A stretch of 64,000 bases of DNA from Microbacterium suwonense. GTDB taxonomy: Bacteria; Actinomycetota; Actinomycetes; Actinomycetales; Microbacteriaceae. The notes beneath the pieces were generated by a model, which ran no database searches, was not told where the DNA came from, and saw nothing but the letters and a program-made list of their open reading frames with translations. A program made the position numbers and the translations under genes. This document shows, piece after piece, positions 32,202 to 43,607 of this stretch. The stretch lies in contig NZ_AP027728.1 in assembly GCF_030296555.1 (NCBI RefSeq), positions 1,364,001 to 1,428,000 on the forward strand, read 5' to 3'. Within the stretch, counting starts at the first letter, position 1. The number at the start of each line of letters is the position of its first letter.

Positions 32202-34112
32202 TCAGGCGTTCGCGTCCTGGCGCTTCATGCGCGATGCCTCGCGACCGCGGACGGTCTGGTCGAGGATCACCTTGCGGATGCGGACGACCTCGGGGGTCAC
32301 CTCGACGCATTCGTCGTCGCGGGCGAACTCCAGGCTCTCCTCGAGCGAAAGCTCGCGCGGCGGCGTCATCGACTCGAAGTTGTCGGCGGTCGCCGAACGC
32401 ATGTTGGTGAGCTTCTTCTCCTTGGTGATGTTCACGTCCATGTCATCGGCGCGGGAGTTCTCACCGATGACCATGCCCTCGTAGACCTCCTGCGTGGGCT
32501 TGACGAAGAACGACATGCGCTCCTGCAGGGCGATCATCGCGAACGGGGTGACGACACCGCTGCGGTCCGCGACGATCGAGCCGTTCTGGCGGGTCGAGAT
32601 GTGTCCGGCCCAGGGCTCGTAGCCGTGCGAGATGCTGTTGGCGATGCCCGTGCCACGCGTGGTCGTCATGAACTCGGTGCGGAATCCGATCAGCCCACGG
32701 GAGGGGACGATGAACTCCATGCGCACCCAGCCAGTGCCGTGGTTGATCATGTTGTCCATGCGACCCTTGCGGGCGGCGAGCAGCTGCGTGATCGCGCCGA
32801 GGTACTCCTCCGGAGCGTCGATGGTCAGGTGCTCGAAGGGCTCGTGCGTCTTGCCGTCGATCTTCTTCGTGACCACCTGCGGCTTGCCGACGGTGAGCTC
32901 GAAGCCCTCGCGCCGCATGTTCTCGACGAGGATGGCGAGCGCCAGCTCTCCGCGACCCTGCACCTCCCAGGCATCCGGACGCCCGATGTCGACGACCTTG
33001 AGGGAGACGTTGCCGATCAGCTCGCGGTCCAGGCGGTCCTTGACCATGCGAGCGGTGAGCTTGTGCCCCTTGACCTTGCCCATCAGAGGAGAGGTGTTCG
33101 TGCCGATGGTCATCGAGATGGCGGGATCGTCGACCGTGATGGCCGGCAGCGGTCGCACGTCGTCGGGGTCGGCGATGGTCTCGCCGATCGTGATGTCCTC
33201 GAAGCCGGCGATGGCGACGATATCGCCGGGACCGGCCGACTCGGCCGGATAGCGCTCCAGCGCACGGGTCTTCAGCAGTTCGGTGATGCGGGCGTTCGCA
33301 TGCGTGCCGTCGGCGCGCACCCACGCGACGGTCTGGCCCTTCTTGAGCGTGCCGTTGAACACACGCAGCAGCGCCAGACGCCCCAGGAACGGGCTGGAGT
33401 CGAGGTTGGTGACCCACGCCTGCAGCGGGGCCTCGTCGTCGTAGTCGGGGGCGGGAATGTGCTCGAGGATGGCCTCGAAGAGCGGCTCGAGGTCGCCGTT
33501 GTCGGGCAGCTCGCCGTTGGCAGGGCGCTTGCGCGAGGCGGCGCCGGCGCGACCCGATGCGTAGACCACCGGCACGTCCAGGAGCGCGTCGACGTCGAGG
33601 TCGGGGACGTCGTCGACCAGATCGGATGCCAGGCCCAGCAGCAGATCCTGGGCCTCGGCCTCGACCTCGGCGATGCGCGCATCGGGGCGGTCGGTCTTGT
33701 TGACCAGCAGGATGACGGGCAGCTTCGCCTCGAGCGCCTTGCGCAGCACGAAGCGGGTCTGCGGTAGCGGCCCCTCTGAGGCATCCACCAGCAGCACCAC
33801 TCCGTCGACCATGGACAGGCCGCGCTCGACCTCGCCTCCGAAGTCGGCGTGGCCGGGGGTGTCGATCACGTTGATCGTCACCGGCGACTCGGTGTGGATG
33901 CCGTTGTAGGTGATCGCGGTGTTCTTCGCGAGGATCGTGATGCCCTTCTCGCGCTCGAGATCACCGGAGTCCATCGACCGCTCTTCGACGTGTGCGTGCT
34001 CGCCGAACGAGCCCGTCTGACGGAGCATCGCGTCGACGAGGGTGGTCTTGCCGTGGTCGACGTGAGCGACGATCGCGACGTTTCGGAGGTCAGAGCGGAG
34101 GGCGTGCGCCAT
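32202..34112 (-). CDS. typA: translational GTPase TypA/BipA
   Basis: A 636-residue ribosome-binding GTPase of the EF-G-like superfamily, needed for ribosome assembly and stress growth. The G domain shows [12 protein letters not shown] (G1), [13 protein letters not shown] (G3) and NKTD (G4); domains II, III, V and the BipA-specific C-terminal domain follow, with the conserved [11 protein letters not shown] near residue 470. Full length and in one frame. It stands alone; the region upstream carries the palindromic element at 34196. Confidence 0.96.
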
Positions 34113-34195: not shown

Positions 34196-34254
34196 TTCAT
34201 GTAGCGCAAATTGCTCCGCTGAGCCACCGAACGCAGCAACTTGCGCTACATGAA
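34196..34254. repeat. 59-bp palindromic element, copy 1
   Basis: Left arm TTCATGTAGCGCAAATTGCT (34196-34215) and right arm at 34235-34254 are inverted repeats matching at 19 of 20 positions around a 19-base loop. A second copy with the same arm and loop lengths lies inside nadB at 43251-43309. Here it occupies the typA / CAAX-protease intergenic space. Confidence 0.85.
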
Positions 34255-39574: not shown

Positions 39575-39626
39575 GGAGTTCTCCCGGTCAGGATCGGGTA
39601 GGACGGCGCCATCGTCGTCCTGGGAA

Positions 39627-39858
39627 CTCCCCTCTGTCATCGGGCCTGAGAGCTTCGCCCTTCACTTCGACTCGCTGCCGCTCGCTCAAGACGAGCGAAC
39701 GGCTCAGGGAGCCATCGATAGAGCTTTCACCGTCGGCGGATCTCTCTCGAGATCGCTTTTCAGAGCGGCCCGACGCGGGCGGTGGGGGTACCTGAGAGAT
39801 TGGCGGGGAGGCTTGCTCCTTCGGTGCCCGGCTGCGTTCATCGGGCTCTCCCGCACAC
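39627..39858 (-). ncRNA. tandem glycine riboswitch (gcvT motif)
   Basis: On the minus strand the first aptamer begins at GCGGGAGAGCCC (39843-39854), then GCACCGAAGGAGCAA and CTCTCAGGTACC; the second contains GACGGTGAAAGCTC, GGGCGAAGCTCTCAGG and the end signature GACAGAGGGGAG near 39627. These are the conserved cores of both halves of the cooperative glycine riboswitch. The second half carries an extra stem (CGCTCGTCTTGAGCG). It sits directly before gcvT, where it should switch on expression when glycine is high. Confidence 0.92.
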
Positions 39859-39881
39859 GTCGTACGGCCTGTATTCGGTTG

Positions 39882-42099: not shown

Positions 42100-43607
42100 T
42101 GCACGTCCTCGTCGTCGGCGCGGGCATCGCGGGGCTCACCGCGGCGCTGCGCGCGGATGCCCTGGGGCACGACGTCGAGCTCCTGGTGAAGGGTCATCTC
42201 GGCGACGGCTGCACCGTGCGAGCGCAGGGCGGCATCGCTGGCGAGTACGGCCCGGGCGACTCACCGGCGCTGCACGCGCTGGACACCATGCACGCCGGGA
42301 ACGGCCACGGCGATCCGGTCGCGATCGCCGCACTGGTCGATGGCGCTGCGGCCGCGATCGACGCCCTGGTGGACGCCGGCGTCAGGTTCGACCGCGCCGC
42401 TGACGGGTCGATAGCCCGGGGCCTGGAGGCGGCGCACAGCCTGCCGCGCATCGCGCACGCCGGAGGGGATGCCACCGGGAAGGCGATCTCGGATGCCCTG
42501 ATCGCGCGCCTGCGGTCATCGACCGTACAGGTCAGCGAAGGCGTGTTCGCCGCGGATCTTCTCGTCGAGGAAGGCCGGGTGTGCGGCATCCGTACGCTGG
42601 ATGGCACCGAGCACCGGGCGGATGCCGTGGTGCTCGCGACCGGCGGGGCCGGGCGGCTTTTCCCCCACACGACGAATCCGCCCGAGACGACCGGCGACGG
42701 GATCGCCATGGCGCTGCGCGCCGGCGCCGCGGTCGCCGACCTGGAGTTCATGCAGTTCCATCCCACCGTGCTGGCCGTGGGCGCGCCGTTCCTCATCTCC
42801 GAGGCGGTGCGCGGCGCAGGCGCGGTGCTGCGGGATGCCGACGGTCGCCGATTCATGCTGGTCGAGCATCCGGATGCCGAACTGGCGCCACGAGACGTGG
42901 TGGCGCGGGCCGTGGCGCGACGCGCCGACGAGCAGGGGTCCCCCGTGCTGCTGGACGCCACGTCCCTGGGCGCTGCGGATCTCGCCCGCCGCTTCCCCAC
43001 CATCGATGCCGAGCTGCGCCGACGCGGGATCGAGTGGGCGCAGACGCCGGTGCCGATCACACCCGCTGCGCATTATCTGATGGGTGGCGTCGTCACCGAC
43101 ATCGACGGCCGCACCTCGTTGCCCGGGCTCTGGGCGGTCGGCGAGACGGCCCGCTCCGGCGTGCACGGCGCGAACCGCCTCGCGTCGAACTCCCTGCTCG
43201 AGGGCGTCGTCTTCGGCGCGCGCGTGGCCGACGCGCTCGCTTCTTCTGCGTTCGTATCGCTTGAATTGCTCGGTTCAGGTCCGAAATGCAGCAATTTGCG
43301 CGATATGAACGCAGAGGGCGGGTTCTCACGGGACGCACTCCAGCGGGTCATGTGGGAGCAGGTGGGACTGCGGCGGACGGACGCGGGACTGGCATCCGCC
43401 GTGGCGACACTCGACTCGTGGCGGGCACCGCAGCCACGCACGCCGCAGCCACGCACGCCGCAGCCACGCACGCCGGCGGAGCAGGAGGATGCGAATCTGC
43501 TCATCGTGGCGCATGCCATGGCATCCGCCGCTCTCGCCCGCACCGACTCGCTCGGCGCGCACTTCCGCGTCGCAGCCCCCGTTCCCGCCCTGATCGGAGC
43601 CCCATGA
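42099..43607 (+). CDS. nadB: L-aspartate oxidase with an in-frame palindromic insert
   Basis: A 502-residue FAD enzyme that oxidises aspartate to iminoaspartate for NadA. The FAD motif is VVGAGIAGLTAAL; QGGIAGE, GGAGRLFPHTTNP and EFMQFHPT are typical, as is SLLEGVVFGARVADAL. Immediately after that, residues about 383-405 (SSAFVSLELLGSGPKCSNLRDM) are coded by the palindromic element and do not look like family sequence. A PQPRT triple repeat follows near 445. The N- and C-terminal parts are otherwise normal. Whether the inserted loop affects activity is unknown. Overlaps nadA by one base and nadC by four. Confidence 0.93.
   Translation: MHVLVVGAGIAGLTAALRADALGHDVELLVKGHLGDGCTVRAQGGIAGEYGPGDSPALHALDTMHAGNGHGDPVAIAALVDGAAAAIDALVDAGVRFDRAADGSIARGLEAAHSLPRIAHAGGDATGKAISDALIARLRSSTVQVSEGVFAADLLVEEGRVCGIRTLDGTEHRADAVVLATGGAGRLFPHTTNPPETTGDGIAMALRAGAAVADLEFMQFHPTVLAVGAPFLISEAVRGAGAVLRDADGRRFMLVEHPDAELAPRDVVARAVARRADEQGSPVLLDATSLGAADLARRFPTIDAELRRRGIEWAQTPVPITPAAHYLMGGVVTDIDGRTSLPGLWAVGETARSGVHGANRLASNSLLEGVVFGARVADALASSAFVSLELLGSGPKCSNLRDMNAEGGFSRDALQRVMWEQVGLRRTDAGLASAVATLDSWRAPQPRTPQPRTPQPRTPAEQEDANLLIVAHAMASAALARTDSLGAHFRVAAPVPALIGAP
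43245..43315. repeat. palindromic element, copy 2, inside nadB
   Basis: Arms at 43251-43270 and 43290-43309 match as inverted repeats at 16 of 20 positions around a 19-base loop; TCTGCG / CGCAGA extends the stem at both ends. The right arm, read in reverse, matches copy 1 (34196-34215) at 18 of 20 positions. The reading frame of nadB stays open through it. Confidence 0.85.
43428..43472 (+). repeat. 15-bp tandem repeat inside nadB, three exact copies
   Basis: CCGCAGCCACGCACG is repeated three times exactly, encoding PQPRT units near the nadB C-terminus. In frame, so it lengthens a linker without disrupting the protein. Confidence 0.95.

Follow-up and report, generated by a model that had tools for sequence, protein, structure and literature searches.

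The nadB gene of Microbacterium suwonense, which encodes L-aspartate oxidase, contains a 59-bp palindrome that leaves the reading frame open and belongs to a repeat dispersed in this genome and in others of the genus. The interpretation that we favor, with reasonable though not full confidence, is that this feature is a copy of a dispersed and probably mobile palindrome family, read in frame as part of a predicted disordered linker of the enzyme and rewritten by copies resident in the same genome. The window analyzed is a stretch of 64,000 nucleotides (contig NZ_AP027728.1, positions 1,364,001 to 1,428,000), whose relevant features are listed in Table 1.

Table 1. Window coordinates of the palindromic elements and of the neighboring genes
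Feature	Position	Strand	Remarks
59-bp palindromic element in nadB	43251..43309	+	20-nt arms 43251-43270 / 43290-43309, 19 bases between; codons 385-404
Extended inverted repeat around the nadB element	43245..43315	+	repeat finder: arms 43245-43270 and 43290-43315, 26 nt, 85% complementary, 19 nt between
nadB, L-aspartate oxidase, 502 aa	42099..43607	+	frame open through the element; TIGR00551
NadB inter-domain segment, ~residues 378-407	43230..43319	+	segment of relatives and low-confidence coil 381-410 in the model
Second copy of the element	34196..34254	.	repeat finder: arms 34196-34218 and 34232-34254; between divergent genes, upstream of typA
typA (presumed name) beside the second copy	32202..34112	-	89-95% identical relatives in most of 29 genomes

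The geometry of the nadB element is that of a 20-19-20 palindrome, and the open reading frame runs uninterrupted across its 59 bp. A preliminary description of the window had reported such an in-frame stem-loop, together with an 18 of 20 match between its right arm and a second copy near typA; both observations were reproduced, the reverse-complemented right arm of the nadB copy differing from the left arm of the gap copy at only 2 of 20 positions. When the window was searched with the arm pattern at up to three mismatches, three matches were obtained, compared to none in 100 shuffles. The RNA fold of the nadB element was calculated at -43.7 kcal/mol (z -6.99), a value that none of the shuffles equals, and the G+C content is about 0.49 in the element region (3 bases off the exact ends) versus 0.72 in nadB. 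An Rfam scan assigned no RNA family to either window copy; its sole matches in the window were two adjacent glycine riboswitch matches at 39624-39863 (-).

Searches were then extended to the complete genome. The arm pattern, again at up to three mismatches, retrieved 35 arms (none with the reversed control). Nineteen two-armed copies, all cut at the same spacing and aligned without gaps, were used to build a covariance model, which retrieved 35 genome copies at E <=1e-3. The preliminary description had seen two copies and had left room for there being no others, a case that the 35 copies dismiss. Length was fixed in advance both for these first 19 copies, trimmed to 59 bp, and in the general pattern presented below, so that only the covariance search speaks freely on this parameter: the model, although built from these 19 genome copies, permits insertions and deletions, and 31 of its hits display the same 59-bp span while four are one base longer (60). 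As this search scored 150 of the 798 first-look candidates, weak copies may be missing. Both-sided arm changes were observed in 32 cells versus 19.2 in shuffles, and covariation and the percentage paired exceeded 500 of 500 shuffles; no excess was found in the number of pairs altered in both arms (reached by 199 of 500 shuffles) or in the number of pair types (reached by 321 of 500). An additional copy, of another subtype, was found by the general pattern at 1527923. All 35 loci are located within 1.398-2.972 Mb, half of the chromosome being empty (rough P 2e-5, 21 clusters). A dnaA C-terminal domain is encoded at 2.466 Mb, inside the copy-bearing half, and the copies therefore surround the presumed origin while the opposite half is empty. 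Degenerate relatives of the palindrome, spaced ~100-230 bp apart, also form tandem arrays at 1692478-1692965 (L024-L026) and 1674927-1675089 (L023).

In order to follow the family beyond this species, a general pattern was defined as TTC, two free bases, R, T, M, GC, 39 free bases and the mirror image. It produced 715 matches in 87 of 295 genomes of the genus, sampled at one genome per species, compared to 11 matches with the reversed control, and the covariance model used with stricter filters placed copies in 99 of the same 295. Copies are present in 16 of the 16 genomes chosen for a nadB palindrome. Among 299 genomes of the bacterial family, only 6 of which belong to this genus, 11 matched: four from this genus, four from genus g58 and three from genus g17. 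The copies outside this genus amount to 22 in that sample, where the reversed control gave one match in each of eight genomes likewise outside the genus, and some single-match genomes, such as G045, look like chance. The spelling of the arms tends to be lineage-specific, pairs taken within a genome being 0.78 alike and pairs taken between genomes 0.62 (14 genomes). The Y1 transposase (PF01797), the sole mobiliser family covered, was detected in only one of the 295 genomes (G041), which has no copy by the general pattern, and a RAYT was consequently discarded as the mobiliser; in the control, the same search detected it in 5 of 14 known genomes. Nine plasmid records gave short partial matches (best E-value 0.5), and the 21 pattern matches obtained in viral contigs form only 2-7 of the 15 inner pairs; both were taken as chance. 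An integron attC site was set aside by eye, the end boxes of attC being absent.

The placement relative to genes was determined for 58 copies, 29 from this genome (some of them weak) and 29 best model hits elsewhere, using home-made and approximate gene calls. Fifty-six are located outside genes: 29 between genes of the same direction, 19 between convergent and 8 between divergent genes; the remaining 2 are intragenic. Distances to the stop codon were computed for the 47 copies beside a gene end, with the smaller value retained for convergent copies and the 8 divergent copies, the 2 intragenic ones and L019 omitted. The latter, as judged by eye, codes the C-terminal residues of a histidine kinase-like protein in this genome. 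The median distance is 5 bp here and 7.5 bp elsewhere, and 39 of the 58 copies fall within -10 to 30 bp of a stop codon (15 of 21 here, 24 of 26 elsewhere). An intrinsic transcription terminator was ruled out, as no T run was found behind the stems on 36 sides of 18 copies (mean T fraction 0.10, maximum 0.25); neither window copy displays a terminator-like site. By analogy with proposals made for REPs, the hairpins outside nadB would act as 3'-end elements, ensuring the protection of transcript ends or the insulation between convergent genes. The second intragenic case belongs to a CydD-like transporter of genome G265, where the element (L068, ~1506-1564) starts at residue 456, is read in a different frame than in nadB, and separates the membrane part (to residue 407) from the ATPase part (from residue 497). 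One solved CydD is ~27 residues shorter at this site.

The identity of the nadB product is supported by TIGR00551 (487.2 bits, cut-off 452.75), whereas the stricter NF005867 gave a score of 509, below its cut-off of 639. The structural model of the protein has a mean pLDDT of 89.5 and E. coli L-aspartate oxidase as its best structural match. Residues 381-410 display neither helix nor strand in this model, and their three blocks have mean pLDDT values of 68, 51 and 65, the lowest corresponding to residues 391-400. The best solved sequence match, 5kxj (Salmonella according to its title, from another phylum), aligns across the segment with a difference of ~3 residues. Given this coil of low pLDDT and the similar length of the segment in 5kxj, the linker seems to tolerate the peptide, and the model suggests that the codons of the element are likely translated as a floppy or disordered linker between two folded parts of NadB. 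The segment is 45 residues long here and 42-71 across the 30 loci examined, whether the palindrome is present or absent. The similar length observed in relatives devoid of the palindrome, as well as in 5kxj, led us to reject a clean insertion. The palindrome had been described at the outset as inserted; its in-frame position holds while the added length does not, and the 20-25 extra residues expected only in this species were not recovered, as a palindrome occurs in 19 of the 90 nadB genes sampled in the genus and the others have linkers of similar length. A short tandem repeat was also noticed at ~43428-43476, in the C-terminal part of nadB, where it codes PQPRT three times. Linker length bears as well on translational bypassing, in which ribosomes would skip the nadB hairpin as reported for mobile hairpins of one yeast mitochondrion; gene-interrupting hairpins with bypassing are mentioned for Magnusiomyces in PMC6649704. 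Such skipping is highly improbable here: a skip of precisely these 59 bases, a length not divisible by 3, would disrupt the frame that reading through keeps, and the linker reaches its usual length only with the element.

The recurrence of the palindrome at this site was evaluated on 110 requested nadB loci, from which 100 linkers were read (a few genomes twice, three linkers short). A palindrome score of at least 12 was reached by 26 of these 100 linkers and by 5 of 653 windows of the same length taken upstream in the same genes. The covariance model itself places copies in nadB of G124 and G182, at almost the same offset, in proteins respectively 64% and 62% identical to ours. With the 59-bp geometry and at least 15 of 22 outer pairs, 98 linkers (90 of the genus, being best matches to our NadB and not a random draw, and 8 from outside) yielded 21 palindromes in frame 0, one in frame 1 and two in frame 2; the same pairing was reached by 60 of 88,396 control windows. 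A strict set was also established, restricted to elements in frame 0 that begin with two pyrimidines followed by C and form 15 or more of the 22 outer pairs. By this test, 19 of the 90 nadB genes of the genus carry the 59-bp palindrome in the same inter-domain segment and 71 do not, including those of the copy-rich genomes G149, G252 and G253. Loci L236 and L250 (15 pairs, other starts) are omitted from this set and L220 (14 pairs) lies below its threshold. The single frame of the strict set arises by construction, since frame 0 was demanded. When the nadB elements possessing the ends of the family were chosen regardless of frame, 17 of 17 were nevertheless in frame 0; since 7 of them could be read through in any of the three frames, stop codons alone fail to explain the preference. 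Similarly, 16 of 18 even-centered palindromes scoring at least 12 are in frame 0, the exceptions L099 and L262 having other ends; odd-centered ones were set aside. Repeats or palindromes of other types occupy the nadB linkers L103 (G181), L108 (G096) and L215 (G034), e.g. CTTCGACAGGCTC in L108, which indicates that this segment attracts or keeps other repeats too.

One might consider that the hairpin itself is selected in the nadB mRNA, for instance for pausing or for the amount of NadB, while its sequence drifts by compensatory changes. The strong fold and the occurrence of hairpins in the 19 relatives despite their different spelling are in line with such a role. We nevertheless regard it as improbable: on the mRNA strand, no excess of G-T (14) over A-C (18) mismatches was found in 418 cells from the 19 nadB elements, the hairpin is missing from 71 of 90 relatives, and its spelling follows that of the other copies of the genome. 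Similarity reaches 0.687 between nadB copies and the other copies of the same genome, versus 0.587 with copies from different genomes (permutation P 0.00005); this comparison was performed on a subset of elements from 14 genomes, sometimes 1 or 2 each, and only 6 of the 14 nadB copies have their own genome in first place. Further copies are found in 18 of the 19 genomes with a nadB element versus 46 of the 71 without (Fisher P 0.01).

In a NadB tree calculated without the linker, a quick tree with several weak forks, the elements are dispersed over a 79-row clade, and the early branches hold no clear example. The element seems to wear out in one clade, from L212 to L246, L231 and L223. The sister species G000 (this genome) and G033 share 0.48 of their nadB arm letters, versus 0.84 for the distant pair G000 and G124; the value is also 0.84 for the distant pair G275 and G014. 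The main rival of our interpretation is a series of independent insertions, the linker being a tolerant target hit often by different subtypes with only some frames surviving. It would readily account for the sister species bearing different nadB subtypes (G000/G033 and G182/G214) and for element starts ranging from base 45 to base 102 of the segment, and elements do enter genes elsewhere, in another frame, as in G265. The use of one frame by all 17 clear nadB elements, 7 of them open in all three, argues against it, as do the start at base 48 shared by seven elements from three separate parts of the tree and the clade where the same element wears out. Repeated insertion is thus rather unlikely, albeit far from negligible, and an old nadB site rewritten by resident copies is preferred. 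Under this rewriting scheme, the ancestor of most of the genus would have acquired the element, which would have been kept because the linker would tolerate almost any sequence; the element would later have been rewritten by the own copies of each genome, through gene conversion or same-place replacement, or would have decayed. The palindrome had also been called mobile-looking. That it is a dispersed repeat is borne out, and mobility is inferred: no clean empty nadB site was found and no target duplication was seen. The whole is best summarized as a REP-like repeat, probably mobile, that was probably retained at a single tolerant coding site and rewritten there.

The second window copy offers a view of an ordinary site. 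It lies upstream of a gene that we take to be typA, a name carried over from the preliminary description. A copy is present there in this genome and in G036 only, the other 26 of 28 readable genomes having none; G181 displays a palindrome with other ends at this site and G182 a 58-bp relative on the opposite side of typA. Copies therefore appear to come and go at typA, being present in 2 of 28 readable genomes and, in G182, on the other side. Loci L308 and L322 were unreadable in this sample and G042 has two loci; its typA matches as two separate stretches (G042:C24:156950-158847; L333, L334). The rates at the nadB and typA sites are not fairly comparable, as the 30 genomes were chosen partly for bearing nadB elements.

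Like REPs, the 59-bp family is mostly intergenic and near 3' ends. REPINs are paired REPs, in which two inverted arms form one hairpin unit. Our family is comparable to these by its paired-arm hairpin and differs by its nearly fixed length and by the absence of a RAYT from what was found. REPs, tagged GTAG or CGTC, are presented in PMC3733652 as short palindromes of 20-40 bp mostly near 3' ends, between convergent or same-direction genes, with some inside open reading frames, the GTAG families being linked to RAYT tyrosine transposases; relative to this account, the unit studied here differs by its 59 bp and by the occurrence of Y1 in 1 of 295 genomes. The same source mentions different REPs at about the same recB site in two Xanthomonas species, which is the nearest precedent seen for the nadB pattern. 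Bacterial MITEs, as outlined in PMC2229807, are short, non-autonomous and bounded by inverted ends, some coding in frame. The 59-bp family is likewise short with inverted ends; no target duplication was seen, and PF01797 was the sole transposase family covered. A REP survey lists Actinomycetota among its taxa (PMC12306157), and the string 'microbacter' is absent from the main text of PMC12306157 and PMC3733652. No description of the repeat in Microbacterium was found in the open-licence literature searched, judged by title or start of abstract.

The resemblance to Rickettsia palindromic elements (RPEs) suggested initially is justified in part. RPEs are described in PMC2229807 as dispersed palindromes of 105-146 bp that occupy intergenic regions and also occur, in frame, within conserved protein genes. 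A dispersed palindrome in frame in a core gene is indeed observed, in nadB here and in relatives and in the CydD-like gene of G265; relative to that description, our element differs in host and length and presumably in sequence, is mostly found just past the ends of genes, and appears repeatedly in a single gene under variable spelling. By analogy, the 59-bp repeat works like RPEs, yet is not one of them. Coding palindromes of worm mitochondria and the loss of repeat identity by Rickettsia elements with time are reported in PMC6649704.

Palindromes that code for protein have been described mainly in Rickettsia and among those REPs that chance has placed within open reading frames. In the present case, a single segment of a core enzyme holds the repeat across many species and in one frame, and its spelling tends to match that of the rest of the genome. 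We tentatively propose, as a possibility and not as the expected outcome, that the family represents a new class of mobile hairpins with an almost fixed length of 59 bp, a machinery other than Y1/RAYT, a lock-and-key turnover of the arms by lineage, and the NadB linker as a lasting in-frame coding dock. The nadB series provides a natural test of how a repeat becomes, and stays, a piece of protein, and hints at a spreading system not yet described, in a genus nearly devoid of the known one (RAYT).
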